From a virus: DNA of 64,000 bases. Of the stretch, positions 7,420-63,600 are shown in pieces; the stretch's first letter is position 1; each line of letters opens with the position of its first letter. Location: positions 46,051 through 110,050 of IMG/VR virus record IMGVR_UViG_3300037297_000249; one strand, written 5' to 3'. The notes under the pieces were generated by a model. It was not told the DNA's origin and searched no databases. It saw only the letters and a program-made list of their open reading frames with translations. Both the position numbers and the translations under genes were made by a program.

Positions 7420-7425
7420 CACTTC

Positions 7426-8930: not shown

Positions 8931-9138
8931 GTTCAATCGTACAGGTAAGAGTATGCAAAATTTTGAAAAGGGTTCTTTTTCTGTTGACTCATATAGTAGG
9001 TACTGTGTAGAGTAGTACGCGGAGTTAGCGGTTGAATAAATAAGAATTCTGTAAATTGAGGACTGCACGGTTACGTTAAGGTCTTCACTTTTAATAATGT
9101 GTGGACCACTGTGCTAACCATTTCTACTAGGAGTATCA

Positions 9139-10248: not shown

Positions 10249-10329
10249 TCGAGTAAAGGCAATTAAGGCTGGATGTTTTATGCTATATTCTTTTTGATGT
10301 TGTTGATGAAAAGCATAAGTGGAGGAGCG

Positions 10330-12639: not shown

Positions 12640-12640
12640 A

Positions 12641-13159: not shown

Positions 13160-13167
13160 GTTTAGAC

Positions 13168-14848: not shown

Positions 14849-14856
14849 GGAGAGTC

Positions 14857-30760: not shown

Positions 30761-30771
30761 CTGGAGGAGTG

Positions 30772-31879: not shown

Positions 31880-31891
31880 GAGGTCTTGAGT

Positions 31892-33129: not shown

Positions 33130-33854
33130 GTCCTGAAGTTCTGGGTGATTTACACATTATTTTGTACAGCGGTGGTATGGATTCGTATATTACTTATAAG
33201 TATGTTGGGCGAATTTCGGGTGATAATGATATAGTTTATCCTGTTTATTTTAGTCTCGGACACAGGTATGAGCACCAGGAGCTGGCGGCAGTTGCGAATA
33301 CTTTGGGCAGTAAAGTTATGCGGGATTTTACCCTTAAAGGACTGGGTAAAGTTGAAGACTATTTTGCGCATATTCCGGGGAGGAATGCACATTTAGTTTT
33401 GGCTTCTTTGAAATATGCGGTTGTTAAGTCCAGTAAAGTTTTTGTTTGGCTTACGGTTCAAAAAGATGAGATGAGTATTCCGGATAGGAGTGAAGAGTTT
33501 TTTGAGAAGATGTCAGAGGTTTGTAGTGTGTTGGTTGGCTCGGAGGTTCATGTGGCGACCCCATTCAGGGATATGGATAAGGCAGATATGGTGGCATGGT
33601 ATTTGTCTAAGGGATATTCAGTTGATGAGTTGTTGAGTACTTGGGCATGTTATAATTCTACTTCGTATATTCCGTGCGGCGAGTGCAGTGCATGTATCCG
33701 GAGATACATTGCTCTGAGTATTAATGGTTTAAGTGAGGAGTACAGAGTTGACCCTTTGAGTTCTAGCTTGGCGGATAGTTATAGAAAAGCGGCAAAGTTG
33801 GGGGAGTACAGTGAGCAACGTTGTGGAAGAATACTGGAGGTGTTAGGTGAGTGA
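33126..33854 (+). CDS. queC: 7-cyano-7-deazaguanine synthase (QueC-like)
   Basis: The 242-residue protein has the PP-loop ATP site IILYSGGMDSYITYKY, SIPDRSEEFFEKMS, and the zinc cluster in ACYNSTSYIPCGECSACIRRY. This is the QueC layout: ATP-dependent conversion of 7-carboxy-7-deazaguanine to preQ0. It overlaps the HAD gene by ATGA and the radical SAM gene by 8 bases. Confidence 0.88.
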   Translation: MSPEVLGDLHIILYSGGMDSYITYKYVGRISGDNDIVYPVYFSLGHRYEHQELAAVANTLGSKVMRDFTLKGLGKVEDYFAHIPGRNAHLVLASLKYAVVKSSKVFVWLTVQKDEMSIPDRSEEFFEKMSEVCSVLVGSEVHVATPFRDMDKADMVAWYLSKGYSVDELLSTWACYNSTSYIPCGECSACIRRYIALSINGLSEEYRVDPLSSSLADSYRKAAKLGEYSEQRCGRILEVLGE

Positions 33855-37492: not shown

Positions 37493-39046
37493 ATGGCTGT
37501 TGAAGGTAAGAGTAGGGATAGTGTATTTGCGGGTGATAGTCCTATAGGTAGGCACTTAGCCAGATGGGATAGAGATATTCCCCAGGAGAAGCGTACTTAT
37601 GGGGTTAAGGTGTGTTTAGCCGGAGGTGAAGGGAAATCTTTTAGGGACGGTCTATATAGAGTTGGAGTGCGGCACTTATTGGCCTCTTATCTCTACATGA
37701 GAAACTGGCTGAAGAAGCATTCCGTTGAAGAGATTGAAAAAGATTTGGGGAGGTTTGATTATTTAATCTTGGATTCCGGGGGTTTTACTCTCTTAAAGGA
37801 GCGAAAGAAGAACCCTGACTTTGGGGTTAAGATGGATGTTCGTGAGTATGCTGAGGAGTACTACACTGAGTTAAAGAGAATAGGGCATTTGTTTTCTATG
37901 TGTGCTGAGGTTGATCTGCCGTCTGAAGTTGGGGTTGATTATGGGGAGGCAATGAAAAGGGAGTTGATTTCTGGGGGTGTGCCTATAGTCCCTGTAATGC
38001 AAGGTCAACCAATAGAGTATTTCAAAAAGCTTAAGTGGTTTGATAACTTTCCTTACATCGCTATTGGGTCGGCAGTTATAGGGAAGGGTGATTATAAGGG
38101 ATGGTTGCGGGATGTTTTTAAGATAGGCAAGGAAAACGGGAACATTTTTCATGGGTTTGGGGCTACGGCCGAAGATGTTTTGTTTAAGGGTCAATTTTAT
38201 TCGGTAGACTCAACCACTTGGATTGATGGTGGGAAATACGGTACGACTATGATATATGAAAATGGTCGTATTCGGTATTACGATATGGAGAGCAAAAGCA
38301 TTCGGAAAAAGTATAAGCGGATGTTCGAAGAAAATGGAATTGTTTTTGCGGACATCATGAAGGATAAGGCTTTTGAAGTTAACATGATGAATGCGGTTGC
38401 ATGGAGACAGCTGGGTGAAGGGCTTAAGTATGATGTTCGAAATTCTTATTGGCTTACGGATGAAGAGAGAGAAGCTGCGGCCACTATAAAGGAGTCTGTA
38501 TATAATAAGGATGGATTGATCGACCGTAGCCAGTCTATTGCCAGAGCTCAGCTAAGAAGGAGCAACATTAAGCGAGACCCACGGCGAGACGACAGAATTC
38601 ATGAGCCGATTAATTGTAGTACATGTTTCTTTGAGGGGAAATGTCCGAGGTATAAGCCGGGAGCTCCATGTGGCTTTGATATGAACTTGCAGATCGAGAG
38701 TGAGATAGATTTGCATAGGGTCATGAAGAGCTTGGTAGAGACGGCTTATGGTAGAGTTATGAACGGTGTGCTATTCGAAAAATTACATGGCGGATCTCTT
38801 GATAAGAATGTGTCTGCTGAGTTAAAGAATTTGGTGGGCATAGTTAAAGATCTTCGCGATGTCTACATGCCTAAGAAAGGAGGTAGCCAAGAAGAGGATG
38901 GGGAGTCCTTTACTTTATCCGGTAAGGCTACCTCCAAGGGTGTCTTGAGTCAGATGCTATCTTCAGTCTTTGGGGCCGATGGTGATTCCAAGGATGGGGA
39001 AGTTGAAACTATTAACGTAACTCCCGAAGAAAGTCGGGAGGAATAG
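37493..39046 (+). CDS. dpdA: DpdA-like DNA guanine transglycosylase
   Basis: The 517-residue protein has a TGT fold: RFDYLILDSGGFTLL near residue 90 (the DSGGF nucleophile region of tRNA-guanine transglycosylase), MCAEVDLPSE, PVMQGQPIEYFKKL, YIAIGSAVIGKGD and NIFHGFGATAED. A late Cys cluster (INCSTCFFEGKCPRYKPGA then PC) may bind metal. DpdA swaps guanine in DNA for preQ0, the product of the Que genes just upstream. Its length exceeds tRNA TGT because of a C-terminal extension. Confidence 0.85.
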   Translation: MAVEGKSRDSVFAGDSPIGRHLARWDRDIPQEKRTYGVKVCLAGGEGKSFRDGLYRVGVRHLLASYLYMRNWLKKHSVEEIEKDLGRFDYLILDSGGFTLLKERKKNPDFGVKMDVREYAEEYYTELKRIGHLFSMCAEVDLPSEVGVDYGEAMKRELISGGVPIVPVMQGQPIEYFKKLKWFDNFPYIAIGSAVIGKGDYKGWLRDVFKIGKENGNIFHGFGATAEDVLFKGQFYSVDSTTWIDGGKYGTTMIYENGRIRYYDMESKSIRKKYKRMFEENGIVFADIMKDKAFEVNMMNAVAWRQLGEGLKYDVRNSYWLTDEEREAAATIKESVYNKDGLIDRSQSIARAQLRRSNIKRDPRRDDRIHEPINCSTCFFEGKCPRYKPGAPCGFDMNLQIESEIDLHRVMKSLVETAYGRVMNGVLFEKLHGGSLDKNVSAELKNLVGIVKDLRDVYMPKKGGSQEEDGESFTLSGKATSKGVLSQMLSSVFGADGDSKDGEVETINVTPEESREE

Positions 39047-44558: not shown

Positions 44559-45367
44559 TGAGTTTTTGTTGGCGTAATAGGGTCTTGCATGGGGTGTGGT
44601 TGGGGTACGACCCGATAATTATATTAGAACGCGACCGGAAGTGTTGCGAGAGGAGGTTTCATCGGTGGAAATTTGATTGGGATAGAAGGCCGAATTACCT
44701 GGTGTGTTGCGATTGTGGAGCTAGAGCCATTCCCCATGTTTGCGATTGGGATAGGGTTCTAAGTTTGAGATCAAGGGTTCTTGGGGAGGTTGAAAATATG
44801 GCAACAGTTTTGGTTGTTGGCTGTGTTAGGAGTGGGTTAAGTCTAACTATGCAGATGTTAGATGCGGGTGGATTTCCTTGTGTGGGGAAGTACCCAGCAT
44901 ATGAGAAGTACGATTTAAAAAAAATCAATTGGAAGGAGTGCAGGGGTAAGGCAGTAAAAGTGGTGGATACCTATAAGCAGTTTCCACCCGTAGGGTATTC
45001 CTATAAGATTATTTATTTGCAAAGGGATGCCCTTCAGCAGGCGTTAAGTTTTAATAAGTTTTTGCGTGAGATAGTTGGTCAGCCTGAGTTGCCATTGCAA
45101 TTAGTGCAGGATTCCTTTGCGCAGTCCTATAGTCAGATTAATCAGTGGTTCAATAGGGCTAAGGGAGTAAAGGGTGTAGTAGGGTTTGAGGACATACTAT
45201 CGAACCCTGGCGTGGTAGCTCGTCGGCTGGCCAGAATTGTAGGTCAAAAGTTGGATATTTCAGCTATGGCTAAAGCTGTAGTTGACCGGAATGCTAAGTG
45301 CTATCCGGGGTTTTTGGAGATGTCTTTGATAGACAAAGTAGAGGGTTTACATGGAAAGGTTGTTTAG
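44558..45367 (+). CDS. Sulfotransferase-like protein with Cys-rich N-terminus
   Basis: The 269-residue frame has two parts. Residues 1-80 are basic with a possible zinc site (YLVCCDCGARAIPHVC). Residues 81-269 form a sulfotransferase-like domain: VLVVGCVRSGLSLTMQML (P-loop-like), GYSYKIIYLQRDALQQALSF and GVVGFEDILSNP, matching the layout of the sulfotransferase at 19.5 kb. A second start at 44798 with GGGGAGG upstream could make the domain alone. Substrate unknown. Confidence 0.6.
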   Translation: MSFCWRNRVLHGVWLGYDPIIILERDRKCCERRFHRWKFDWDRRPNYLVCCDCGARAIPHVCDWDRVLSLRSRVLGEVENMATVLVVGCVRSGLSLTMQMLDAGGFPCVGKYPAYEKYDLKKINWKECRGKAVKVVDTYKQFPPVGYSYKIIYLQRDALQQALSFNKFLREIVGQPELPLQLVQDSFAQSYSQINQWFNRAKGVKGVVGFEDILSNPGVVARRLARIVGQKLDISAMAKAVVDRNAKCYPGFLEMSLIDKVEGLHGKVV

Positions 45368-45863
45368 TTTTATTTGGATTATGATTTTGGGGTGCAGTTC
45401 TGGGAGCGGAACGGGTAAGAATACCCCTGCCGATACCGATGCCGAGGGGGATATCCCTGTCGATACTGCCACGGATACCGATACCGATGGGGATACCGAT
45501 GGGGATACCGATGGGGATACGGACACGGACACGGACACGGACACCGATGGGGATACCGATGGGGATACCCCTGCCGATACCGACACCGACACTGATGGGG
45601 ATACGGATACCGATACCGATGGGGATACCGATGGGGACACGGACACGGACACCGATACCGACACCGACACTGATGGGGATACGGATACCGATACCGATGG
45701 GGATACCGATGGTGACTTAGGCAGGGAAGGGGCATGTATTACAGACCAAAAAAATTATTTGGAGGACTTTGGCTATAGTCCCGAGAGTATGACTGTTGAA
45801 GATTTGGAGGAGGTATTGAGTTTATCTTCGGATTTCTGGGGGTCCTTTCCAGTATGTGAATGA
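45351..45863 (+). CDS. Thr-Asp repeat lipoprotein
   Basis: The 170-residue protein has a signal peptide ending in the lipobox ILGC, then about 90 residues of Thr-Asp/Gly-Asp repeats (DTDTDGDTDGDT type), and a folded C-terminal end with two Cys. The repeat is encoded by repeated GATACC/GACACG units. Such TD-rich lipoproteins are frequent in Myxococcota and related bacteria. It should be anchored in a host membrane with an acidic, possibly calcium-binding stalk. Confidence 0.65.
   Translation: MERLFSFIWIMILGCSSGSGTGKNTPADTDAEGDIPVDTATDTDTDGDTDGDTDGDTDTDTDTDTDGDTDGDTPADTDTDTDGDTDTDTDGDTDGDTDTDTDTDTDTDGDTDTDTDGDTDGDLGREGACITDQKNYLEDFGYSPESMTVEDLEEVLSLSSDFWGSFPVCE
45481..45717 (+). repeat. Tandem GAY-ACN codon repeat in the lipoprotein gene
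   Basis: The DNA is a mix of short units such as GATACCGATGGG and GACACGGACACC repeated without interruption for about 240 bases. The unit order differs between parts, as expected from slippage and reshuffling. It encodes the Thr-Asp stalk. Confidence 0.85.
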
Positions 45864-48697: not shown

Positions 48698-50342
48698 GCC
48701 TTAGCTAAGGTTCGGTATGGTATTGATGAGTAACGTAGACATTTGTATAGGTGGAGCAATGGGGTCTTCCGTGGTGCTATGCGGACATTGATTTTACGGG
48801 TGATGCATTGTAGTTGTAAGGTACATCTTCGCTAAGTATAGTGTGGGCACATTGTATGGGGTTGTTGGGTATCGAAGTGGTTGGGTATAGTTCAGTAGAG
48901 TATCTGGAAAGTGTCATATTGTTTAGTGCATTAATAGCATAGTGTAGGTGAAGCATAGTTGTTTTGTGTGGGGTACTGGTAGGCGAAGGTGGAGTTGAGT
49001 ATGGATGTCTTGAGTAGAGAGTGTAAAGCAAAGGTTAAGTAGGGTTTAGTAGCATACTGTTCGGGTAGGTATTGTTTCGCATTCGTACGGGTGATGGTGA
49101 AGTCGGGGTCAGTTTTGAATGGCTATAGCAAGGTGAAGTTAAGCTGTGTAATGTTAGAGTGGAGTAGGGTTTGGTATGGATGGCTTAGTGATGCAGGTGT
49201 GAGGTTAAGCGGCGTTATGTTTGCTATGTACGGTAACGTTAGGCGTAGTTGTATGGTTTGGTAGGGCCTTGTTTAGTGAAGCTGTGTGATGTATATTGTA
49301 TTGTAGGGTATAATAAGTTATAGCAAGGCAACGTGGTGTAGGGAATGGTAATGTATAGGTGTAGTAGAGAAGTTGGGCAGCGCGATGTTTGCATTAGTAT
49401 TGAGGAGTTTTGTATTGAATGTAGTGTCATGTTTAGCCTGGTAGGGGTAAGGCAGTGTGGCGGAGGGCAGAGTATGGAAGCAATAGTGTAGTTTAGTAGA
49501 GATGGGTATAGTGAGGGTAAGCGGAAGAAATGCAGAGAGAGGTGATGTTGAGTGAGAGTTAAGTTTTGGGCAGTTTTGTGCGATGTTGCGAAGGTATAGT
49601 TCGGATGAGTATAGCTCGGATGAGATTTGTAACGCACTGTTGGGTAGAGTGCTCGTTGAGCAATGTGTAGATTGGTAGGGTAGGGTAGAGTTGGTGTAAA
49701 GTAAAGTGATGCGCGATGTAGAGATGCTATGCGGAGTGGATGTGATGTGTATCAATGTGCGGTATTGGCATGCAGAGCGGAAGTAAGGGACGGCTAGGTT
49801 TTGGATTGTATGGTGTAGAGTGAGGGAATGTACGTCGAAGTGGTGAGTAAAGCGAGGGAACATATTGTGGTGTGATGCTGGGACGTGTATGTCGAAGTAA
49901 CGGGTAAAGTGAGGAAGCGGGTTGTGGCGTAGCGTGTAGGGTCTAGCCTGCTGAGGTTGTGGCGTGAAGGGTGATGTGTTGTATAGGTATTGAGATGCGA
50001 TGTTGTGATTAGTGGGGCATAGCGCCTATCATGTATGGGTAGAGCTAAAGTTTTGTGAGGCTGTGTAGAATCAAGTTAAGGTTATGCTGTCCAGGGTAAC
50101 GTTGTGCATTTAGGAGCAATAGTATTGCGTATGCTAGGTAGGATAAGTAAATTGCAGTAGAGTGTTGGAAGAGTAAGGATGAGTAAATTGCAGTAGAGTG
50201 TTGGTAGGGTAATGCAGAGTATCGTGAGACTAAGCTTTAGGTGATGGTAAGGCTGAGTAAATTGTGGTCGAGTTCGGGTGGAGTTATGTGTGGAGATGTC
50301 AGGTAATGGCGAAGAATGCAAAGATATTAAGTTGGAGGGTTG
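48698..50342 (+). other. 1.6-kb gene-free G/T-rich stretch with degenerate repeats
   Basis: No + strand frame with a ribosome site exists; TAG stops recur every few codons in all frames. The base mix is G, T and A with very little C. Degenerate direct repeats occur: near 49830 and 49887 (~57-base period) and near 50143, 50179 and 50253 (AGTAAATTGCAGTAGAGTG unit). Minus-strand open frames here are low-complexity. It may be an untranslated RNA, a DNA-site region or decayed sequence. Confidence 0.7.
50143..50277 (+). repeat. Three degenerate direct repeats
   Basis: A unit reading ATRAGTAAATTGCAGTAGAG plus TGTTGG occurs at 50143-50168 and 50179-50204 with one mismatch. A weaker copy (CTGAGTAAATTGTGGTCGAG) begins at 50253. 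The spacing of the first two is 36 bases. Function unknown. Confidence 0.8.
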
Positions 50343-53110: not shown

Positions 53111-54151
53111 ATGAGGTTTGTTTTTTTAGTTTGTAGCTTGTTTATGGTGTTGGCCGGCACCGCTTCGGCGGAGCCAAAGGAGGCAAAGGCCTATGAGTTT
53201 TGGCCTGAGGTGTCGGAGTGGGAGTCTGATGGTAACACCTTCTATGGGGTCCCTACCGTGGATGTTATCCTATATCAGGTGGTTGACGGTAAGCGGGTTG
53301 GGGTGGAGTTGTCAGATGATACGGCAGAATATCTCCAGGGGGTGTTTGAAGAAGCCGAGGAAGGAGATATTTGGGTATCCCTAGAAGATGGGACGATTCA
53401 TGTTCTAGTAGGGGCCACGGTTGGAAGTGAGGCAATGGAAGAGTATGTAGACTACTACATTGAAAAGACATTCAGTTGTTTAAGGGCGTTAAAGAATATT
53501 GAGGATGCAGAGGCTGTGGGTGAGATGTATTTAGATTTTGATTTAGATACGTTGCTCGAGGATCTGTTGACGGAGGTGATTGAGGAGAATCAGCCGAGGA
53601 TAGCTGAGATGGTTGAAGCGTTCAATGATGATAGATGTTTGGAGGAGCGTAATCATTATGAGCCTGATCAATTTGTAGAGCGGCAGGTTGAAAAAGCGGT
53701 TCGGGGAATGCTGTTGGGTATAGAGGATGCAGTACACTTTTCTGAGGCTGATTTAGTAATAGCTACGAGGGTGTTGGACGAGCTCTATTTAGGGGTTAAG
53801 GGGTTTTTCCCGGTGAGGAGCGCAATACGAGTCAAGGAAGCTCTGGCAGTGAGTATGGAGTTGTTGAGTCCGGAGGTCACGGAGTATGACGAAAGATCAT
53901 ACTTTAATTATTTTGATTTTGTGTATTATGCTAGCGATTTCAGTGTCCATGATTTGTTGCAAATCGCTTGCAGCTGTGTTCCTTGCGGAGCTCGAGCTGA
54001 TGAAAGCTGTGAGGTTTGTGATAGGCATTTTTCGTTCAGGGTGAGTTTGGAGGAGTGCTACCAAGAGGGGAAGATTGTCTTTGATACCGTGAAACTTAGC
54101 GATGAAGTAAGGGGTTTTATTAGAGGGGGAGGGGAAGGGACTGAGTTATGA
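53111..54151 (+). CDS. Secreted acidic protein, tandem paralogue 1
   Basis: The 346-residue product has a signal peptide (FVFLVCSLFMVLAGTASA). The mature part is acidic and helical, and the C-terminal ~80 residues hold Cys pairs (CSCVPCGARADESCEVC). It shares the full architecture with the gene directly downstream. It should act in the periplasm or be secreted. No known family. An internal 109-base stretch is almost identical in both copies. Confidence 0.65.
   Translation: MRFVFLVCSLFMVLAGTASAEPKEAKAYEFWPEVSEWESDGNTFYGVPTVDVILYQVVDGKRVGVELSDDTAEYLQGVFEEAEEGDIWVSLEDGTIHVLVGATVGSEAMEEYVDYYIEKTFSCLRALKNIEDAEAVGEMYLDFDLDTLLEDLLTEVIEENQPRIAEMVEAFNDDRCLEERNHYEPDQFVERQVEKAVRGMLLGIEDAVHFSEADLVIATRVLDELYLGVKGFFPVRSAIRVKEALAVSMELLSPEVTEYDERSYFNYFDFVYYASDFSVHDLLQIACSCVPCGARADESCEVCDRHFSFRVSLEECYQEGKIVFDTVKLSDEVRGFIRGGGEGTEL
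53864..53972 (+). repeat. 109-base near-identical repeat, copy 1
   Basis: It matches 54901-55009 at 108 of 109 positions, inside otherwise diverged duplicate genes. It encodes LSPEVTEYDERSYFNYFDFV and YYASDFSVHDLLQIAC. Confidence 0.9.
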
Positions 54152-55164
54152 AGTTTGTTTTGTTTGTTTTTAGTTTGTTTGTTATGTTGGCCGGCACTGC
54201 TTCGGCGACGCCAAAAGAGTCAAAGGCTTATAGTTTTTGGATTAAGGCGCATGAGTGGGAGCCTGATGGAAATACTTCCTATGGGGTTCCTACAGTTGAA
54301 GTGGCACTAAGCCAAGTGGTCGAAGAGACGCGGGTCGATGTTGAGCTGCCAGAAAGTACAGCTGAATACCTTCTTGGAGTGTTTAAAGGCGCGGAGGAAG
54401 GGGACATTAAGGTATTCCTAGATGAGGGGACGATACAGGTAGCTGTAGGGGAGTCAATTGGAAGCGCAAGCATGGAGGAGTATGTAGAGTATTATGTCGA
54501 TATGACGAAGCAGTGTTTTCGGGCGTTGGATAGGATAGAGGATGCTGAGGCACTTGGAGATCTCTTTTTAGACTTCGATCAGGATACTGAGCATGTAGAC
54601 GAGCTGATGGATATTGTTGATGAGTATCGTCCAATAGCTGACGAGATGGCATATGCGTATGGTACAGATAGGTGTAGAGAAGAGCTCAATGATTATGAGC
54701 CGGATAGTTTTGTTGTGAGTCAGATAGAAGCAGCGGTTCGGGGAATTTTGCTTGGAGTAGATGATATAGTCCACTTCTCTGAGATGGATAGAATAGTGGC
54801 TACGAGGGTTCTGGAGGACCTTTATTTGAGCGACTGGGGGTTCTTTGTGGGGAGAAGTGTTGTTAGGGTTAAGGAAGCCCTTATGCCTATGATGGCTAAA
54901 TTGAGTCCGGAGGTCACGGAGTATGACGAAAGATCATACTTTAATTATTTTGATTTTGTATATTATGCTAGCGATTTCAGTGTCCATGATTTGTTGCAAA
55001 TCGCTTGCAATTGTGTTTCTTGCGGAGCCAGAGCAGGGGACAGTTGTAAGGTTTGTGATAAGCATTTTTCGTTTAGAGTGAGCTTGGAGGAGTGCCGTCA
55101 AGGCGGGAAGCTTGTGTTTGATACAGTGAAACTCAGCGATGAAGTAAGGAGTTTTGTGAGATGA
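54148..55164 (+). CDS. Secreted acidic protein, tandem paralogue 2
   Basis: The 338-residue product is a duplicate of the gene upstream: the same signal peptide form (VLFVFSLFVMLAGTASA), matching blocks SYGVPTVEVALSQVVE, YLLGVFKGAEEGD and the Cys-rich end CNCVSCGARAGDSCKVC. Its ATG overlaps the upstream stop by ATGA. Most of the gene is clearly diverged, except for 54901-55009. Function unknown. Confidence 0.65.
   Translation: MKFVLFVFSLFVMLAGTASATPKESKAYSFWIKAHEWEPDGNTSYGVPTVEVALSQVVEETRVDVELPESTAEYLLGVFKGAEEGDIKVFLDEGTIQVAVGESIGSASMEEYVEYYVDMTKQCFRALDRIEDAEALGDLFLDFDQDTEHVDELMDIVDEYRPIADEMAYAYGTDRCREELNDYEPDSFVVSQIEAAVRGILLGVDDIVHFSEMDRIVATRVLEDLYLSDWGFFVGRSVVRVKEALMPMMAKLSPEVTEYDERSYFNYFDFVYYASDFSVHDLLQIACNCVSCGARAGDSCKVCDKHFSFRVSLEECRQGGKLVFDTVKLSDEVRSFVR
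54901..55009 (+). repeat. 109-base near-identical repeat, copy 2
   Basis: Partner of 53864-53972, differing at one base (G to A, silent). The high identity, including third codon positions, suggests recent gene conversion. Confidence 0.9.
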
Positions 55165-55761: not shown

Positions 55762-55900
55762 TACTATGAAGAGCACAATAAGCTATATTAGGATGGGTAT
55801 AAGAGCGTAAGAAAAAGTCTCCTATGAGTAAAAGTCCGGGGAAGTCGAAAGTCTAGAGGTTCGAGTAAAAGTCTGAAATTTGGTAGGAGTTACTGGGTGT

Positions 55901-56101
55901 AGAAAGCGCGCTTTCTAGGTGGGTGCGGCAATGTTCTAAGTAAGGCATACAGTAAGCTTTCAGGTATAGGAGGTTAGGTCTATCAGTAGGACATGGGTTC
56001 TGCTGGGGCATCACTCGAAGTCTGCCTGCGGGGTTTGCCTGGAAGTCGGCGCGGCCGGCGAGGGGAGCTCCGGACCAGCAGAAAATGCGGCCCTCTAGGG
56101 C
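55901..56101 (+). ncRNA. Candidate structured RNA or multi-hairpin element
   Basis: AGAAAGCGCGCTTTCT at 55901-55916 is a perfect palindrome. TTCTGCTGG (55998-56006) pairs with CCAGCAGAA (56075-56083), enclosing a GC-rich domain with GGAGCTCC. A further GCCCT-CT-AGGGC hairpin lies at 56090-56101. The GC content is far above the flanks. Fold and transcription are unproven. Confidence 0.4.
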
Positions 56102-56489
56102 GGAGGAGGAAGTAAGCTATGAGCTTAGAGGAAGAGCTGTACAGGTCTATATATTATTGAGGCGTATGAGGTTTGGAATATGGTTAGGTGTAGGTAGGGT
56201 GTAAGGTGTTGAAGAATGGTGGAGGGGGGAGTTGCGATAGGCTGTATTGATAGGGAGTTTGAGAAGGTTGTGGAGTTGTATTGTTTTGTGATGAGGTTTG
56301 CGGTGACCGCAGCCGTGCAGGGTAGAGAAAATTTTTTTAGGTTGCTTTTGGGTTTTGAGGGATATGGCTATATTTGGCCATAATTTTTGAAATATGAGAT
56401 TAGGCTTCGGAATGGTTTGCGGTTTTGACTTGACAAGACTATTTTTTGCGGTTGATTTTCATTGGTTTTGACCTATATTTTACTAACTG

Positions 56490-56605
56490 AATTATCGTCT
56501 ATGATTTAGATCCACGATAATTACTTACCGATTGATGTTTAATCGATTTTGTGATCTATAATTATCGTATTTAGATTGTCCGATTGTGATTACGATCGAA
56601 CAATC
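56490..56605 (+). promoter_or_regulatory. Cluster of inverted repeats (operator-like)
   Basis: ACGATAATTA (56514-56523) and TAATTATCGT (56559-56568) are exact inverted partners; ATTATCGT also occurs at 56491-56498. CGATT/AATCG (56529-56545) and GATTGT/ACAATC (56574-56605) add nested pairs. It precedes the small-gene array and may bind a regulator. Confidence 0.5.
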
Positions 56606-56755
56606 CTGTGACCTCACCCCTTGCGAGATCATTACTGACCTATCATGTCTGTCTGTAATGAATTATGTATCACCTCCCTGTGTGTGTATTTACACTCCTA
56701 ATTCTAATATAACTATATTCTGATGAATTGCACTATAAGTTTTTTGATTATTAGG

Positions 56756-56785
56756 TTGGACACTCCCATTAATAACCCTTATATT
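56756..56785 (+). promoter_or_regulatory. Array promoter 1
   Basis: TTGGAC, an 18-base spacer and TATATT, followed by the palindromic ATGA...TCAT element near 56797-56814. It drives the gene at 56830. Confidence 0.55.
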
Positions 56786-56829
56786 TGTATTAGAAGATGA
56801 CGAAACGTTATCATTGATTAGGAGGGACC

Positions 56830-57069
56830 ATGAAAACTATGACAAACCAAGAGATCATTGAACATGTCGAAAATGCTATCTCGCATTACGGGGATCAACT
56901 GGATTGTGTGTATACCTATTTTTGTGACAACAATCTACAGGTTCCGCCCCGATCGGAATTCCGGAAATTCATTGAACGCGCGGGAATCCCCGTACACGAT
57001 CTGTATTCTGACTCGGACATGACCGATGAATATACCTATGATCTGTGTTTGTTCGTATCTCATTTTTGA
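56830..57069 (+). CDS. Small protein heading the array, not of the main family
   Basis: A 79-residue acidic protein (MTNQEIIEHVENAISHYGDQ) ending in TYDLCLFVSHF. It shares the leader and AGGAGGGACC ribosome site with the next gene but not its protein sequence. An ATG at 56839 is an alternative start. Function unknown. Confidence 0.55.
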   Translation: MKTMTNQEIIEHVENAISHYGDQLDCVYTYFCDNNLQVPPRSEFRKFIERAGIPVHDLYSDSDMTDEYTYDLCLFVSHF

Positions 57070-57079
57070 TTTATGTTTT

Positions 57080-57148
57080 TCAGGTTTTTGGTTTGCAATT
57101 CCCTTATTAATGAATATATTATTATTAGATGACGATAACAATGTCATT
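57080..57148 (+). promoter_or_regulatory. Array promoter 2 (exact 69-base copy)
   Basis: TTTGCA (57092), 17-base spacer, TATATT (57115), then ATGAC/GTCAT inverted repeat (57129-57146) just before the ribosome site. The whole 69-base block recurs exactly at 57770-57838. Confidence 0.75.
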
Positions 57149-57162
57149 AAATAGGAGGGACC

Positions 57163-57360
57163 ATGACTTTTGACGATATGATGTTTTTTGACGTATATCA
57201 TCAACATCCTACAGGATATGGATTTTGGCGGTTTAGTGCTCAGAATGAAAATGGAATATGGGAAGAATTCGTTTGCCCGGGGAGAATTTCGTTTTCTGCC
57301 GCTAAAGACCTCGCAAGGGAACGTTTCCCGCGTGTCGATGTTATTTATGTGATGTCTTAA
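57163..57360 (+). CDS. Array paralogue 1
   Basis: A 65-residue member of the repeated small-protein family. It has GYGFWRFSAQNENGIWEEFV, then CPGRISFSAAKDLARERFPR and ends VIYVMS. The shared plan is an aromatic W-x-F strand, a short turn, a Cys/aromatic strand, then an Ala-rich helix and an IYVM(P/S) strand. It forms an operon with the next gene. Confidence 0.65.
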   Translation: MTFDDMMFFDVYHQHPTGYGFWRFSAQNENGIWEEFVCPGRISFSAAKDLARERFPRVDVIYVMS

Positions 57361-57405
57361 TAACATCATTGATACAAATATCATCGTAACAAAGGAGGAA
57401 TGATT

Positions 57406-57630
57406 ATGTCTCATAAGTTCAACACTTCTGAATACCGTAATTGTTATGGGAAATCCCCTTGTGGGACCGGATGTTGGATTCTTGCGATCAAAAATAAACG
57501 AGGGGGACTTAAACTGTGCTATGCTCCCTACGGGACGTTTGCATTCGCAAAAGAATATGCCCGGGAATATTTCCGTGACTATCCCGATGCTGTTATCTAT
57601 GTGATCGGAACTGTATATTCCCAAAAATAG
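57406..57630 (+). CDS. Array paralogue 2
   Basis: From the ATG eight bases after AGGAGG, a 74-residue member: YRNCYGKSPCGTGCWILAIK, LCYAPYGTFAFAKEYAREYF and RDYPDAVIYVIG, with a short extra tail. It is about 80 percent alike to the member at 57877 and has no promoter copy of its own, so it is co-transcribed with the gene at 57163. Confidence 0.68.
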   Translation: MSHKFNTSEYRNCYGKSPCGTGCWILAIKNKRGGLKLCYAPYGTFAFAKEYAREYFRDYPDAVIYVIGTVYSQK

Positions 57631-57633
57631 GTT

Positions 57634-57680
57634 GAAATATATGCTATGGATACCTCTATTGGAGGGACCTGTGTGTTATG
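57634..57680 (+). repeat. 47-base dispersed repeat, copy 1
   Basis: It reads GAAATATATGCTATGGATAC then CTCTATTGGAGGGACCTGTG and is repeated with a few changes at 60489-60535. It looks like a leader with ribosome site (GGAGGGACC) that has lost its gene. Confidence 0.75.
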
Positions 57681-57695
57681 TTCCTGAAGGGATAT

Positions 57696-57765
57696 TTATG
57701 TCCTCAAAAATATGCCCGGGAATATTTTTGTGACCATTCCGATGCTGTTATCTATGTGATGTCTA
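57696..57765 (+). pseudogene. Remnant of an array paralogue
   Basis: A fragment encodes KYAREYFCDHSDAVIYVMSN, matching the C-terminal third of the family (KYAREYFRDYPDAVIYV). The N-terminal two thirds are missing and no intact start or ribosome site is in frame. It shows active gain and loss within the array. Confidence 0.7.
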
Positions 57766-57769
57766 ATTA

Positions 57770-57838
57770 TCAGGTTTTTGGTTTGCAATTCCCTTATTAA
57801 TGAATATATTATTATTAGATGACGATAACAATGTCATT
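57770..57838 (+). promoter_or_regulatory. Array promoter 3 (exact 69-base copy)
   Basis: Identical to 57080-57148: TTTGCA, 17 bases, TATATT and the ATGAC/GTCAT palindrome. A second ATGATAC...ATCAT pair follows before the ribosome site. Confidence 0.75.
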
Positions 57839-57876
57839 GATGATACAAATATCATCGTAACAAAGGAGGAATGATT

Positions 57877-58083
57877 ATGTCTCATACATTCAATACTTTT
57901 GGATATCGTAATTGTCACGGAAAATCCCCTCGCGGGGAGGGATGTTGGATTCTTGCGATCAAAAGTAGACGTGGGAAACTCAAGTTGTGCTATGCCCCCT
58001 ATGGGACATTGACGTCTGCAAAAAAATATGCCCGGGAATATTTCCGCGACTATCCTAATGCCGAGATTTATGTAATGCCTTAA
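57877..58083 (+). CDS. Array paralogue 3
   Basis: A 68-residue member: YRNCHGKSPRGEGCWILAIK, LCYAPYGTLTSAKKYAREYF and RDYPNAEIYVMP. Nearly the twin of the member at 57406 in both protein and ribosome site. No signal peptide or membrane helix. Confidence 0.68.
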   Translation: MSHTFNTFGYRNCHGKSPRGEGCWILAIKSRRGKLKLCYAPYGTLTSAKKYAREYFRDYPNAEIYVMP

Positions 58084-58092
58084 TTTTTAGGC

Positions 58093-58151
58093 TTGCAATT
58101 CTCTTAATAATCCTTACATTACTATTAGATACAATGATGATAATAATCATC
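58093..58151 (+). promoter_or_regulatory. Array promoter 4 with perfect palindrome
   Basis: TTGCAA (58093), 16-base spacer, TACATT (58115) and the inverted repeat GATGATAATAATCATC (58136-58151), six-base arms, directly upstream of the ribosome site. Confidence 0.7.
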
Positions 58152-58169
58152 GCAACAAAGGGGGATATG

Positions 58170-58403
58170 ATGCAATCTTTTGATATTTCAATGTACATGG
58201 AGTTCCACGGGAAACCCCCTTGTGGGGAGGGATCTTGGACGTTTTCGATTCTGACTACAGATGGGGAACGTGTGATGTGTTTCGCGCCATATTCGACATA
58301 TCGCCTTGCGCGATATCATGCTCGTATCTTTTTCAAAGATTATCCGGATGCCACTATTTACGTAATGCCAGATACTTCAGAGTTTGGTTTGCAATTGTCT
58401 TAA
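58170..58403 (+). CDS. Array paralogue 4
   Basis: A 77-residue member: FDISMYMEFHGKPPCGEGSW, MCFAPYSTYRLARYHARIFF and KDYPDATIYVMP, plus ten extra residues that are encoded by the next promoter's DNA. Start chosen by alignment to its neighbour (ATG at 58167 also possible). Confidence 0.68.
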   Translation: MQSFDISMYMEFHGKPPCGEGSWTFSILTTDGERVMCFAPYSTYRLARYHARIFFKDYPDATIYVMPDTSEFGLQLS

Positions 58404-58447
58404 TAATACTTATATTACTATTAGAAGACGATGATAATAATAATCAT
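58388..58447 (+). promoter_or_regulatory. Array promoter 5
   Basis: TTTGCA (58388), 17 bases, TATATT (58411), then ATGAT/ATCAT arms (58431-58447). The -35 lies inside the 3' end of the previous gene. Confidence 0.7.
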
Positions 58448-58466
58448 TGCAACAAAGGGGGATATA

Positions 58467-58670
58467 ATGCAGACTTTTGATATTTCAATGTACATGGAGT
58501 TTCACGGGAAACTTCCTCGAGGGGAGAAGTGCTGGACGTTCGCGATCAGGAATGATGAGGGAAAACGCGAACTGTATTTCGCGCCCTATTCGACATTCTG
58601 TTTTGCGCGAGACTATGCCCGGAATTTCTTCCGCGACTACCCGAATGTCACCATTTATGTAATGCCCTAA
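58467..58670 (+). CDS. Array paralogue 5
   Basis: A 67-residue member: FDISMYMEFHGKLPRGEKCW, LYFAPYSTFCFARDYARNFF and RDYPNVTIYVMP. Close relative of the member at 58170. The AAAGGGGGATATA leader is shared. Confidence 0.68.
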   Translation: MQTFDISMYMEFHGKLPRGEKCWTFAIRNDEGKRELYFAPYSTFCFARDYARNFFRDYPNVTIYVMP

Positions 58671-58686
58671 TATTTCAGGTTTTTGG

Positions 58687-58750
58687 TTTGCACTCCTTTC
58701 AATAATCCCTATATTATTATTATGATATGACGATGATTCGGATAATCATC
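58687..58750 (+). promoter_or_regulatory. Array promoter 6 with seven-base palindrome
   Basis: TTTGCA (58687), 17 bases, TATATT (58710), then GATGATT/AATCATC arms (58732-58750) before the ribosome site. Confidence 0.7.
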
Positions 58751-58770
58751 AGAATCGAAAGGAGATTATT

Positions 58771-58974
58771 ATGATTCAAAAAATCGATGTCGGTGCTTAT
58801 GAAAAAGTTCACGGGAAACTCAGACCACGAAGGGAAATCTGGGGATTCCGTGCCAAAAATCAGGATGGATTCTCGGAAACCTATTTTTGTCCGTTTTCGA
58901 TGGATTATGCTGATGCCGTTGCCCGCGCAAAAAAATATTTTTGCACCGCCTCCGTTATCTATTTAATTCCCTGA
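58771..58974 (+). CDS. Array paralogue 6
   Basis: A 67-residue, more diverged member: IDVGAYEKVHGKLRPRREIW, GFRAKNQDGFSETYFCPFSM, then DAVARAKKYF and VIYLIP. The helix and final strand keep the family plan, but the Cys after HGK is lost. Confidence 0.66.
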   Translation: MIQKIDVGAYEKVHGKLRPRREIWGFRAKNQDGFSETYFCPFSMDYADAVARAKKYFCTASVIYLIP

Positions 58975-58989
58975 TAATTCAAGTTTAGG

Positions 58990-59045
58990 TTTGCAATTCT
59001 CTTAATAATGACCATATTATTATTAGGAGATGATGATAATCGTCA
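58990..59045 (+). promoter_or_regulatory. Array promoter 7
   Basis: TTTGCA (58990), 17-base spacer, CATATT/TATTAT (59013-59020), then an imperfect TGATGATAATCGTCA palindrome (59031-59045). Confidence 0.65.
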
Positions 59046-59062
59046 TGACAAAGGAGAAACCT

Positions 59063-59281
59063 ATGAGACAGAAAATCGATGTTGGTTTACATGAATACGT
59101 CTATGGGAAAGGAAGGAAACTTAGATGTAAGGGATGGTGGGCGTTCCGTGCGGAAACTCGGGAAGGGATTACGGAAACTTATTTGTGCCCCACGTGGACT
59201 TACTTTCGGGACGCCGCCAAACTTGCTAAGGAACATTTTCCTGATTCAGAAATTATCCGTTTGATGCCATTTTATGGTTAG
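59063..59281 (+). CDS. Array paralogue 7
   Basis: A 72-residue member: IDVGLHEYVYGKGRKLRCKG, WWAFRAETREGITETYLCPT, DAAKLAKEHFPDSEIIRLMP. AAAGGAG precedes the ATG. It pairs with the member at 58771 in sequence. Confidence 0.66.
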   Translation: MRQKIDVGLHEYVYGKGRKLRCKGWWAFRAETREGITETYLCPTWTYFRDAAKLAKEHFPDSEIIRLMPFYG

Positions 59282-59395
59282 GTTTGCCGATTGTCCTCAT
59301 GCCCTCTTTTCCAAAAATTTAAAAATCTCCCAAAACGTGTCCACGATAATAATCGTTAATTTTTCTATCTTTATTTCGACAATTCAGGTTTTTGG
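59282..59395 (+). other. Spacer with ACGAT/ATCGT repeat
   Basis: The spacer holds ACGATAATAATCGT and a T/C-rich tract, repeated in related form at about 59780-59830. It is part of the repeated unit between genes rather than coding. Confidence 0.5.
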
Positions 59396-59450
59396 TTTGC
59401 AATCGCCTCAATAATGACCATATTATTATTAGAAGATGATGATAATCATC
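59396..59450 (+). promoter_or_regulatory. Array promoter 8
   Basis: TTTGCA (59396), 17 bases, CATATT (59419), then GATGA-TAA-TCATC (59438-59450). Confidence 0.68.
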
Positions 59451-59468
59451 GCGACAAAGGAGAATACT

Positions 59469-59699
59469 ATGTCAAACGACCCCAAAATCAGTGATTACGA
59501 AAAGATTCACGGGAAATATATGAAACATAGAGGAGGTTGGTGCTTTTTGTCTCGTCATCCGGACGGAACCCGCGATGTCTATTTTTGTTCGAAATACCTG
59601 ACCTATGGGGATGCCCTGAAACGTGCTCGTGCTTATTTTTCCGACCCGGATTATCTTCAGATAATCTCTGACGTTTCGATGTTGCGAGACCCGGAATAA
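59469..59699 (+). CDS. Array paralogue 8 with borrowed C-terminus
   Basis: A 76-residue member: ISDYEKIHGKYMKHRGGWCF, GTRDVYFCSKYLTYGDALKR, ARAYFSD. Its end (VSMLRDPE) differs from the family but matches the end of the next, unrelated gene (VSMLRDPK). The shared DNA continues past the stop. The gene therefore looks like a recombination product. Confidence 0.66.
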   Translation: MSNDPKISDYEKIHGKYMKHRGGWCFLSRHPDGTRDVYFCSKYLTYGDALKRARAYFSDPDYLQIISDVSMLRDPE

Positions 59700-59832
59700 C
59701 CCAATTATCCCCTTTTTGCCCCCTTTCCCCTGATTTCAAAAAAACCCTTCAAAACGTGCCGATGATTTAATTTGCATTCACGACAATAATCGTTAATTTT
59801 CTCTCTTTTTATTTCAACATTTCAGGCTTTGG

Positions 59833-59893
59833 CTTGCAATTGCCTTAATAATGACCATATTATTATTAGACGATGATGATGATGATAATCATC
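59833..59893 (+). promoter_or_regulatory. Array promoter 9
   Basis: CTTGCA (59833), 17 bases, CATATT (59856), a GAT-triplet run, and GATGATAATCATC (59881-59893). Confidence 0.68.
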
Positions 59894-59913
59894 GCAACCG
59901 AAAAGGAGACACT

Positions 59914-60396
59914 ATGACAAACCATGACTTTTTTAGAAATCCGCTCGGAAATGAAATGCCCGCCAAAATCGAAATCGTGATTGAACTCGAAAGGTTGATC
60001 TCGGAACATGCCACCGAATCGAAATTGCGCGGGGATTATCCCCATTTCGTTGACATGATCGAGAATGTTTTTTCTTTCAATTCCGAAGATATCATTGAAA
60101 TCCTGCTCAATACTTCGTACCCCAAAATTGTATACCGAGAGATTCGCAAGATGTTGAAATCATGTCTCATGCGATCGGAATGTGCAGAAGAATGGGATAT
60201 GGATTACACTGTGATCGATCCCGATATGTGTGCCGATATTCTAACGAAGGTTTCGCGGGAAATCATCAATTTCTACCTCGAACCTGTTAGGGGGATATTC
60301 CGATTTTCTGAACGCGAGGAATTGATCGACGAGGTGGACGGAACCATTTGCGATGCCGTGACTACTCTCGTTTCGATGCTGCGAGACCCTAAATAA
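59914..60396 (+). CDS. 160-residue protein A, paired with the gene at 61956
   Basis: Mostly helical, acidic protein (IEIVIELERLISEHATESKL) with DPDMCADILTKVSREIINFY then LEPVRGIFRFSEREELIDEV. The second half aligns with the protein at 61956, which has exactly the same length. It is controlled by the same promoter type as the small genes. Function unknown. Confidence 0.65.
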   Translation: MTNHDFFRNPLGNEMPAKIEIVIELERLISEHATESKLRGDYPHFVDMIENVFSFNSEDIIEILLNTSYPKIVYREIRKMLKSCLMRSECAEEWDMDYTVIDPDMCADILTKVSREIINFYLEPVRGIFRFSEREELIDEVDGTICDAVTTLVSMLRDPK

Positions 60397-60488
60397 CCTC
60401 ACTATCCCCCTTTTTCGCCCCCCTTTCCCTCAATTTCAAAAAAACCCTTCAAAACGCGCCGGGATTGGATGCCCCCCAAAAATTGATC

Positions 60489-60535
60489 GAAATATCTGCT
60501 ATGGATACCACTATTAGGGGGACCCGTGCGTTATG
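60489..60535 (+). repeat. 47-base dispersed repeat, copy 2
   Basis: Matches 57634-57680 with a few substitutions. It too holds a ribosome-site-like GGGGGACCCG and an ATG (60533), but the frame closes soon after. Confidence 0.75.
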
Positions 60536-61670
60536 CCTATAAGACTCGCACATAAAATAAATCAAATTTTGGATTCAATTTTGTAAAATTTCACAAAAAC
60601 TATATTTTCGACTATGGACACCCAAAAACGGGGAGGTGAGGGAAATTAGGGATAATGAATATCTAGGAGGGATAAGAGGGGAGGGAGATAGACCTCGTAT
60701 CGATGTCATAGGGGATGTTCCGGATACCTCGATATTGCCCTCGGATTGTCGTCGGATTGCCCTCGGATTGCCCTTCTATCGCTCCAGTTTGCCACCTGGA
60801 CCACGGGGAGGGGAAACGCAAAAAGCGCGCAAAAACGCGGGCTTGGGAGATACACGGGAATTAACATATGAACTATATATACTAAAGAGAGGATAACAAA
60901 CCTCTATACCCTCCTATATCCCTTTTCTCCCCCGTCTCTACCACCACCTTCCCCCCGTCCCCTCCGGATTCCCTCCCACTCGAGATGCCCTCTAGACGTC
61001 CATTGAGACGCTACCTCGTTCAGTTACCTCATATCCCCTCTCTTACTTCCCTCGTTTTATCACCCATATTCCCGATATACTGTCCAAATCTTGCCAGACT
61101 GTCTCTAGATGCCCCTCTCGATTTTTTGATTCAATTTCGTGTGTACCCAAAACATGCCAAATCAACACCTCCTGTCAGGCGTCACTTCGGTGTCTGAGGG
61201 CGGGTAAGGCCCTGTAATCATTGAGGAATCGGGAGGTCCAGATATTATCTCGATTTCGCTCTTGACATTTGTTCCAGATTTTACCTAATCGGGGATGTCG
61301 ATACATACATTGTCTTACATGTACCGATTCCACTTGGGCTGTAACTCACTGGAAAACTGTCAAGGGCTGATTTATCTGGAAATCTAAGGGAAATGGTGGA
61401 AACCTTAAGGACCTGTTTTGTTGATTCCTTGTATAAGGGGACGGGGGAACCGAGAGGAAACGCTCAAAATGACCCCTTAACTATTCCAGATATTTGGGCT
61501 AAACATGGGGATTGACGTCATTGGGGGGATGTGGGCAATGACGGGGAAGAAATATGCTGATTTTGTGCTCTATGTTGCCTATTTTGACAATACTTGTAGG
61601 CTATTGATATTATTGCCGAATTCCCGAAATACCTTGGTATTGTAATTTATAACAAAGATAGGTGTTGTGA

Positions 61671-61788
61671 AATGAGACACTTTTTCGGAATCTAATGATT
61701 TCGGGGGTTTACGCGATTTGGGTGCCAATTTGCCCTATAGGGGAAACACCCAAAACTTCCCTTCGAAATCGCCTAAAAGTGTCTCATT
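61671..61788 (+). repeat. 118-base hairpin element with 14-base terminal inverted repeats
   Basis: AATGAGACACTTTT (61671-61684) and AAAAGTGTCTCATT (61775-61788) are perfect inverted repeats. Inside, GCGATTT pairs with AAATCGC, GGGTG with CACCC, and CCCTA with TAGGG, making a nearly full-length fold. It may be a structured RNA, a strong terminator, or a MITE-like insertion. Confidence 0.65.
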
Positions 61789-61890
61789 ATTTTCTTGACA
61801 AAATCTGCCTCATTAAATGTCAAGTTGGCATACTTATTGATAAACCCCTATTCCAATGTCATCAAATCCAATGATAATAGGCACTTAGGC

Positions 61891-61919
61891 TTGATTTCCC
61901 TTGTTTGAAACCTTATATT
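61891..61919 (+). promoter_or_regulatory. Promoter of the second 160-residue gene
   Basis: TTGATT, 17 bases, TATATT, then an ATGA...TCAT pair (61925-61940). It resembles the array promoters in spacing and -10 box but has diverged. Confidence 0.6.
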
Positions 61920-61955
61920 CTCACTATGACTAATGAATCATCAAAGGAGATCATT

Positions 61956-62438
61956 ATGAAGACCATCAATATCACGACCGATTCAGATTTGATCGATCTG
62001 GATTCTGTGTTGCTTTCTCGAGACCGGATTGCCGATGAAATCAAAAATGCGATTGTGCATCGTAGAGATCCACTTTTGTCCGAGGGGATTAGGAAGAATT
62101 TCCCTAATTTAATCCGAGGGATGTTTCGTCAAGAACTGATCAATATCACTCGAATCGTCATTTCCCATGGATCCCAGGGATTGCAAATTTCAGAGACCAA
62201 AAAATTGATACTGCGTGCGTTCAGCTCGGATTATGAGACATTCAAACTCCCGATACCCCTAGACGATCCGGAACTTTGCGCTCTTTCACTGTCTATGATC
62301 GTGTGCGATACCCTCAATGCCTATCTCGCCCCAATTAAATCATTTTTTACTTTCGACCAGGTTGACGAATTGCTTGAAATTGTAATCACGGATATTCAAG
62401 ACGCCCTGGACTGTATCGATCTTGATTCGTTGTTCTAA
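61956..62438 (+). CDS. 160-residue protein B, paralogue of the gene at 59914
   Basis: Helical acidic protein; DDPELCALSLSMIVCDTLNA then YLAPIKSFFTFDQVDELLEI aligns with protein A (DPDMCADIL..., YLEPVRGIFRFSEREELIDE). AAAGGAG lies before the ATG at 61956; an ATG at 61926 has no site. The 160-residue length is equal in both. Function unknown. Confidence 0.65.
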   Translation: MKTINITTDSDLIDLDSVLLSRDRIADEIKNAIVHRRDPLLSEGIRKNFPNLIRGMFRQELINITRIVISHGSQGLQISETKKLILRAFSSDYETFKLPIPLDDPELCALSLSMIVCDTLNAYLAPIKSFFTFDQVDELLEIVITDIQDALDCIDLDSLF

Positions 62439-62462
62439 ACCAAAATTCAAAAGAGGATACCC

Positions 62463-62807
62463 ATGACCCGAAATGAGATTTTCCGAAAAATGATTTCTTG
62501 GGCGAAAACGGAAATATCGTCCAAATCATTCCTGACTGTAATTCAAATCACGCAATTTCTGCCTGATGGGTGCATCGCTGATATTATCGAACTGTCTCCC
62601 GATATATTGACGCCAAAAGGACGCTTGCGCGCCCCTGTCCGTCGTGCGATCGATAACATTATCAAAAATCAAAATGATTTTAAGATTCAAGAGATTCTGG
62701 CGAGTGATTTTTCTCCCGATGCAGACCACCCTCTGTACAGATATGATGCCCGCTCCCCTGGACAATTCGGACGCCTTTTTTTCGATTCCCGCGATTTTGC
62801 CGATTGA
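62463..62807 (+). CDS. Hypothetical protein following paralogue B
   Basis: A 114-residue protein (FRKMISWAKTEISSKSFLTV early, ADHPLYRYDARSPGQFGRLF late) 24 bases after protein B, with AAGAGGA upstream. No family recognised; not obviously of the array family. Confidence 0.55.
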   Translation: MTRNEIFRKMISWAKTEISSKSFLTVIQITQFLPDGCIADIIELSPDILTPKGRLRAPVRRAIDNIIKNQNDFKIQEILASDFSPDADHPLYRYDARSPGQFGRLFFDSRDFAD

Positions 62808-63596
62808 CCCCCTAAGCCCCTACCCCCCAATACCTACCCTGACATACCCCTGCCTACAGGGTGAGGCTTTGCCTACCTTGTCCTACATATAGGATGCCCC
62901 TCCGACTCGAGGGGAAAAACGCGCTGAAGAGGGGGATCCCCTAGAGAGACATATAGGGATAGACTATATAGGGGATATATAGAGAGACACTCATTCGACT
63001 ACTCTCTAGACGATTTATTAGTTTATACTTGACATAGGTATTTACTTGACTCGCGTATTTCGACCTATTCCCTACCCCCTCTATTCCACTATTTAATATT
63101 CGGACTATGTGGTTTGTTCTTGACATTCATTACATTACCCCACCCCTGTATTGCCCTGTTCCAAATAAATAGGAGATTCATTTGGTTTATTCTTGACAAT
63201 GGAAATATGTCTTGTCTGATGGGTTTGCCACATTATATCGCACCTATCCTATCTGGGGGGTATGCACTATCAATATTCAATTATGTATTACATTCTTTGG
63301 GGGGATGATACCTGCTAAGGTGCTTTTCGCCCTTTATTTATAGGGGGTATATGACGTGCCTATCCTGCTAAAGGGCCTGCCCCTATTGCTCTAAATGACG
63401 CTACCGGCTAATGCTTGTACCCTCATATCGTCCTTTATTCATAGGGGGTATATGAGATACGTATACCCATCATACTACTATGGATATTGACTCAAAGTCA
63501 GATTGATTGTTTCTATTCAAACATCTTATCGTCCTTTATTCATAGGGGGTATGTGATGATCGTGAATCACTATCGCCCTTTATCCATAGGGGGTAT
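62808..63596 (+). other. Gene-poor region with repeats
   Basis: The first 300 bases are C/T- and AT-rich with TATAGGG words and two AGAGAGACA copies. TTGACA-like boxes occur at 63029 and 63190 without good -10 partners. The frame at 63114-63308 lacks a convincing ribosome site. From 63236 the micropeptide repeats begin. Confidence 0.5.
63411..63455 (+). CDS. Putative micropeptide 1
   Basis: ATG-initiated 14-residue frame MLVPSYRPLFIGGI, ending within the repeat. It matches the micropeptide at 63556 in length and plan. No strong ribosome site is visible upstream, so translation is unproven. Confidence 0.3.
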   Translation: MLVPSYRPLFIGGI

Positions 63597-63600
63597 ATGA
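63556..63600 (+). CDS. Putative micropeptide 2
   Basis: 14-residue frame MIVNHYRPLSIGGI, preceded by AGGGGGTATGTG from the previous repeat; its TGA overlaps the ATG of the next frame (ATGA). Same layout as the 63411 frame. Confidence 0.35.
   Translation: MIVNHYRPLSIGGI

Follow-up and report, generated by a model that had tools for sequence, protein, structure and literature searches.

Why would a phage set small genes in a row, almost every one behind its own copy of the same short regulatory block? The question is raised by a 64,000-nucleotide stretch (hereafter, the window; bases 46051–110050 of the 110,050-base virus record IMGVR_UViG_3300037297_000249, which is classed as linear and has no completeness estimate). 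Here an array of small paralogous genes is interspersed with nine clear copies of a cassette consisting, in order, of a sigma70-like promoter, a dyad and a ribosome site. We consider it moderately probable that this array forms a gene-shuffling (hyperplastic) island made up of portable promoter-hairpin-ribosome-site modules, the dyad acting as a hairpin in the messenger RNA (mRNA) leader. Positions below are those of the window, and all genes and cassettes of the array lie on the + strand.

A repeated cassette precedes family and non-family genes alike

The cassette recurs far more often than base composition predicts. A 37-nt cassette pattern allowing up to 3 mismatches finds 6 matches against 0.00 expected from 100 dinucleotide shuffles, and GATGAT-N(2–9)-ATCATC finds 6 against 0.03 expected from dinucleotide shuffles. 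Outside the array, no cassette was found in the 110-kb contig or in the 109.5-kb contig of a sister phage (see below), and the backwards pattern, used as a control, gave 0 matches. Behind every clear promoter comes a hairpin with 6 or more pairs. Upstream of the family genes A, C, D, E, F, G, and H the promoter reads TTTGCA-17-TATATT/CATATT, with CTTGCA/TACATT as the variant at D; gene B has no promoter of its own and sits behind that of A. The boxes (TTTGCA/TTGCAA with TATATT or TATTAT) match the Escherichia coli consensus at about 9 of 12 positions in most copies. Terminator-like sites are few in the region, with 0 inside any cassette, and Rfam gave no match.

The divergent copy 1 (56752–56829; TGGACA-17-TATATT, hairpin GATGACG-AAA-CGTTATC with one G-U, AGGAGG) would drive g1 (56830–57069), which encodes an acidic protein of 79 amino acids (aa) outside the family. 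Copy 2 (57080–57162; GATGAC-N9-GTCATT) precedes gene A (57163–57360, 65 aa). Gene B (57406–57630, 74 aa) follows and keeps a partly decayed leader hairpin, and behind it lies a remnant paralogue (about 57678–57770), of which only the 3′ part is left; the remnant is joined to a block (57620–57673) that recurs at 60475–60535, downstream of K. Copy 3 (57770–57876) carries two tandem hairpins, GATGAC-N9-GTCATT and then GATGATA-CAAA-TATCATC, and precedes gene C (57877–58083, 68 aa). Next come copy 4 (58087–58169; GATGAT-AATA-ATCATC) with gene D (58170–58403, 77 aa); copy 5 (58383–58466; CGATGAT-AATAATA-ATCATTG with one G-U), which begins within the 3′ end of D, with gene E (58467–58670, 67 aa); copy 6 (58682–58770; GATGATT-CGGAT-AATCATC) with gene F (58771–58974, 67 aa); and copy 7 (58985–59062; GATGAT-GATA-ATCGTC with one U-G) with gene G (59063–59281, 72 aa). 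Copies 8 (59391–59468) and 9 (59828–59913) both have GATGAT-GATA-ATCATC; the former precedes gene H (59469–59699, 76 aa) and the latter gene K (59914–60396), which encodes a non-family protein of 160 aa, predicted to be all-helical and without a fold match. At the 3′ end and in the 3′ flank H is similar to K (...SMLRDPE/K), a hint that the two have exchanged 3′ sequence. Further downstream, a decayed tenth cassette (61888–61955) with TTGATT-17-TATATT (61891–61919), a weak dyad and AAAGGAG precedes K2 (61956–62438), which is distantly paralogous to K (24% identity).

The facts stated in an initial annotation of this DNA are all borne out: eight intact paralogues of 65–77 aa plus a remnant, seven of them directly preceded by the promoter block and one sharing it (A and B), and two blocks, 57080–57148 (within copy 2) and 57770–57838, that are identical over exactly 69 nt.

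Sister phages differ at cassette boundaries

Among IMG/VR and bacterial genomes, one other contig carries the locus: IMGVR_UViG_3300034989_000047, from a sister phage with a 96% identical polymerase. The flank is about 95% identical between the two phages up to 55769 and 90% identical to 56788, and the family genes common to both share 76–90% DNA identity.

The differences between the phages lie at cassettes. The sister lacks the leader and the 5′ end and start of g1. It also lacks A, B, and the remnant, and the joint falls inside the block that is duplicated exactly in the array phage; since sister positions 7932–8159 match 56919–57148 and 8091–8783 match 57767–58463, the crossover is placed within the 69-bp block (57080–57148/57770–57838). 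Gene D is missing as well. In place of G and H the sister has X, an unrelated gene of 138 residues with an almost identical promoter block in front of it; the match between the phages ends at 59037, within the leader hairpin of copy 7. The cassette stands before unrelated genes in both phages (g1 and K in the array phage, X in the sister). The K leader differs in the sister and resembles the F leader of the array phage, and behind the sister's K lies a piece of the H/K 3′ end. Recombination between cassettes is the simplest account of these differences, and their position argues that the cassette is a mobile expression module. In-frame upstream ATGs inside the hairpins of D, E, G, H, and the sister's E were considered as N-terminal extensions and rejected, since the upstream ATGs are out of frame in F, the sister's F, X, and K.

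The paralogues form a family under purifying selection

Across 11 members, G32, A47, A51, and F55 (E numbering) are invariant, and W23 is nearly so. Third-position differences are in excess in most compared pairs. The ratio of nonsynonymous to synonymous substitution (dN/dS) is 0.12–0.32 in nine family pairs and 0.11 for K (paralogue or orthologue pairs), as crude estimates from Nei-Gojobori counts with Jukes-Cantor correction in our own script, with dS near saturation for the more distant pairs. The direction of selection is uniform across pairs, and it is purifying; the within-family values therefore argue that these are real genes. The coding signal on which the initial annotation had staked its proposal is accordingly present (0.11–0.32).

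Structure prediction, which that annotation had named alongside alignment as a check on the paralogues, gave a confident fold for one member. An AlphaFold2 model of E, built from an 11-sequence alignment, has a mean predicted local distance difference test score (pLDDT) of 95.8 and a predicted template modelling score (pTM) of 0.81, with a beta-alpha-beta-beta-alpha-beta order, and the predicted fold looks sound. Its only strong fold match is V9QKW2, an unnamed phage protein of 67 aa (Foldseek E 6.9e-5, TM 0.83, 26% identity), which gives no functional clue; Oenococcus phages, guessed as its source, gave no match. Pfam, PHROGs, and NCBIfam profiles returned nothing significant for the paralogues, and a fold search of the PDB with the E model found no relative. 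The best PDB profile match, ribosomal L20 (E 0.18), was dismissed as chance. In tblastn searches, five members had only short matches (E > 1) in 50,697 phage records. The net charge of the family proteins ranges from −3 to +8.

The dyad is likely to act as an RNA hairpin

The position of the dyad invites two readings, as a structure in the mRNA or as a binding site in the DNA. Fifteen leaders fold more stably than their own shuffles (mean z −1.6; Stouffer z −6.3, for leaders that are related and hence not independent). The stems are GATGAT/ATCATC, then GCAACAAAGG; they are AT-rich and lack a U-run. Loops vary from 3 to 9 nt (AAA, CAAA, AATA, GATA, CGGAT, TTGGAT). Four independent one-sided changes have occurred in the core stem, and 4/4 keep a G-U pair on the transcript strand; all core changes are on the 3′ arm, so that the two arms are unequally conserved. 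The hairpin lies 8.5 ± 1.5 nt from the ribosome site and 12.4 ± 3.5 nt from the −10 box. The variable loop, the G-U pairs retained on the transcript, and the tighter spacing to the ribosome site therefore favor RNA over a DNA operator, and it is likely, taking a structural role and an RNA operator together, that the hairpin acts as RNA. We put this no higher than likely because the formal covariation test is negative.

That test is one of several points that weigh against a shuffling island with structural leader hairpins. The covariation count is not above that of shuffles, as the five core pairs hardly vary; only at the sixth pair is there a double change, from T-A to C-G, and it lies outside the columns placed by the aligner. 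(In the by-eye alignment of the stems the arms were chosen by eye, so the count of paired cells there arises by construction and is not evidence.) In 14 hairpins the 5′ arm always reads GATGA, so that a sequence-specific binder may yet be at work; ahead of the stem, 0 to about 10 nt are predicted to be unpaired, in some copies more than a strictly 5′-terminal protective stem would have. The promoters reach just about 9 of the 12 positions of the E. coli consensus. Finally, the array is present in two phages only, so that loss and gain are not readable apart and few independent events stand behind the statistics.

Could a protein read the stem? One phage or host RNA-binding protein might bind the GAUGAU stem and jointly repress or activate translation of the array, a possibility that we regard as doubtful. 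The stem sequence is conserved 8–10 nt upstream of each ribosome site, and there is precedent in T4 gene 43, whose autoregulation works through a hairpin operator in the RNA, ahead of the gene's start (PMC3014915). The T4/RB69 gp43 operators, however, keep their loop bases, whereas loop sequence and length are variable here, and no candidate binder was identified. It is unlikely, in turn, that the dyad is a DNA operator on which a dimeric phage or host repressor would hold GATGAT..ATCATC just past each transcription start and switch the array jointly. The dyad does overlap the predicted +1 to +25 of every promoter, and the invariance of GATGA exceeds the needs of a bare stem, but the distance between the half sites differs among copies by several nt, and a rigid dimer would seldom tolerate this. 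The confinement of core changes to the 3′ arm, all as G-U on the RNA strand, also speaks against such an operator, as does the spacing of the dyad, which is held more constant from the ribosome site than from the −10 box; the contig has no integrase and no match to an HTH_3 repressor (other DNA-binding folds and host repressors were not searched). The initial annotation had described co-regulated tandem paralogues with individual operators. The individual promoters of shared sequence stand, and with them the paralogues are very probably co-expressed; the operators are not supported as described, and the spacing and G-U evidence fits a hairpin in the leader better.

A shuffling island of expression modules

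The repeats, the selection on coding sequence, the confident predicted fold, the breakpoints at cassettes, and the replacement of genes behind one promoter are features of the sequences themselves. From them we infer the following course for a shuffling island. Host RNA polymerase would read each sigma70-like promoter early in infection, the transcript would start at or just before the hairpin, and the first 20–30 nt of the leader would fold. The hairpin may then protect the 5′ end of the mRNA and keep the ribosome site open, so that any gene landing behind a cassette could be expressed immediately, from an early transcript of its own. With few terminator-like sites and none in the cassettes, transcripts may run on into downstream genes. 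Near-identical cassettes would also offer homology for recombination, and genes could therefore be duplicated, deleted, and swapped as units, leaving remnants. The eight paralogues may have arisen by cassette duplication and then, under purifying selection, become different versions of one domain. Position, size, promoter type, and turnover make it probable that the proteins work early in infection, as accessory or host-takeover factors that target host proteins.

The initial annotation proposed a diversifying arsenal, and its paralogues could be anti-defence inhibitors, each directed against a different host defence. Turnover and swapping are real, as the sister shows. Tandem small single-domain proteins that differ in copy number between sister phages would suit that role, as would the range of net charge, but selection on the sequences is purifying in every comparison and no described family was matched; we think the anti-defence role improbable. 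A broader proposal would make the locus a module of non-T4 origin, independent of the cassettes of T4-type phages called PeSLs (discussed below), in which one stem-binding regulator imposes an early regulon at the RNA level, and gene capture with paralogue expansion yields a new family of host-takeover inhibitors; we hold this to be quite improbable. It is scarcely credible that the repeats come from misassembly or are merely decayed sequence without function: although the contig is metagenomic and decayed copies exist (the remnant at 57678, the tenth cassette at 61888), an array of the same type, diverged in sequence, is present on a separate sister contig, and purifying selection acts on the genes.

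The phage and the surroundings of the array

By PHROG matches this uncultivated phage encodes a tail sheath and a DnaB-like helicase, as well as a preQ0 pathway that includes a TGT-like enzyme; it also carries a DNA polymerase I gene and is contractile-tailed and apparently virulent. By tblastn of the capsid, its nearest isolates are Streptomyces phages of about 113–116 kb (38–39% identity), and several uncultivated contigs are nearer (49–78%). The A3 and K families are absent from 17 related-capsid records, many of them fragments, and no comparable repeated cassette was found in three near-full-length relatives. Relative G007 has four separate TTGACA promoters; relative G009 repeats just AACCGATGAGTGA ribosome-site/start sequence.

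Over the island, about 56.5–63.5 kb, GC skew, which is strongly positive elsewhere in the genome, falls from about +0.4 to about 0 and returns to +0.3 past 63.5 kb; the drop (56500–63500) occurs despite the genes remaining on the + strand. A 33-nt repeat (..CGTCCTTTATTCATAGGGGGTATATGA) is present in 4 copies at 63322–63600, with spacings of 101, 101, and 44 nt. Long G-rich stretches without + strand genes lie at 48700–50340, 55800–56740, and L010:1–1260, in both phages, and two neighbouring secreted-protein-like paralogues with about 75% DNA identity (53111–55164) are also shared with the sister. Two more tandem paralogue arrays lie at the opposite end of the contig (L007:197–1941 and L007:3734–9274, within contig 1–16000). 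Many of their copies end in a DGWxxGExxDxxxKxxPxxxPYxxLP-like motif, and a repeat scan picked up no shared promoter cassette in them. QueD, QueE, GTP cyclohydrolase, QueC, and a queuine tRNA-ribosyltransferase-like gene (30724–33854 and 37493–39046; PHROG matches) make 7-deazaguanine modification of the phage DNA probable. A reading frame with intein-like end motifs and no PHROG match (L008:35–928), directly upstream of a portal-like gene, is perhaps an intein within terminase. Lipoprotein-like genes with long DTDTDGD repeats (L007:12917–14107 and 45351–45863) are of a style that we take to be Myxococcota-associated, possibly a hint to the host.

Comparison with known systems

The closest likeness is to PeSLs (promoter-early stem-loops). 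In the work of Arbiol et al. in 2010 and Comeau et al. in 2014 they reportedly consist of a sigma70-like early promoter with a stem-loop, set among non-essential small genes, and the stem-loop is said to be a transcription terminator. By sequence, each cassette described here likewise has a sigma70-like promoter, and genes appear to be shuffled at cassettes between close relatives, with breakpoints at 57080–57148/57770–57838 and 59037. Unlike a terminator, the hairpin here is AT-rich, lacks a U-run, and lies in the predicted mRNA leader beside the ribosome site; the array phage does not belong to the T4 type, and most of its cargo comes from a single paralogue family. Since two defining PeSL features fail, the terminator stem-loop and the T4-type phage, we do not file the cassette as a PeSL. 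The initial annotation had seen in the locus an undescribed system. This holds for the protein family, which has no described match, and not for the principle, since promoter and stem-loop cassettes that shuffle genes between relatives are described in T4-type phages (PMC4503421) and similar ones are suggested in HGTV-1 (PMC3950731). In that haloarchaeal tailed virus (Sencilo et al., 2013), a promoter and inverted repeat precede most open reading frames of one side of the genome, and gene shuffling by cassette was suggested; the promoter type is archaeal, the virus is unrelated, and the sections of the paper used here describe no paralogue array (PMC3950731). For the hairpin itself, the ompA and papA mRNAs offer a parallel: they have 5′-terminal stabilising stem-loops, in which a short stem stands close to the mRNA 5′ end and the ribosome site after it is unstructured (works cited in PMC3997798). 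Those stem-loops are not part of a mobile repeated cassette, and in the array hairpins the predicted unpaired 5′ stretch is variable.

In the sister pair, gene turnover is caught in progress at the edges of cassettes. The locus also provides a family of small phage proteins that is new, confidently folded in prediction, and has testable host targets. Set beside the T4-type phages, where promoter-plus-stem-loop shuffling is known, and the archaeal virus for which it was proposed, the array suggests that this mode of gene exchange has arisen again in an unrelated lineage, with the hairpin in the leader.

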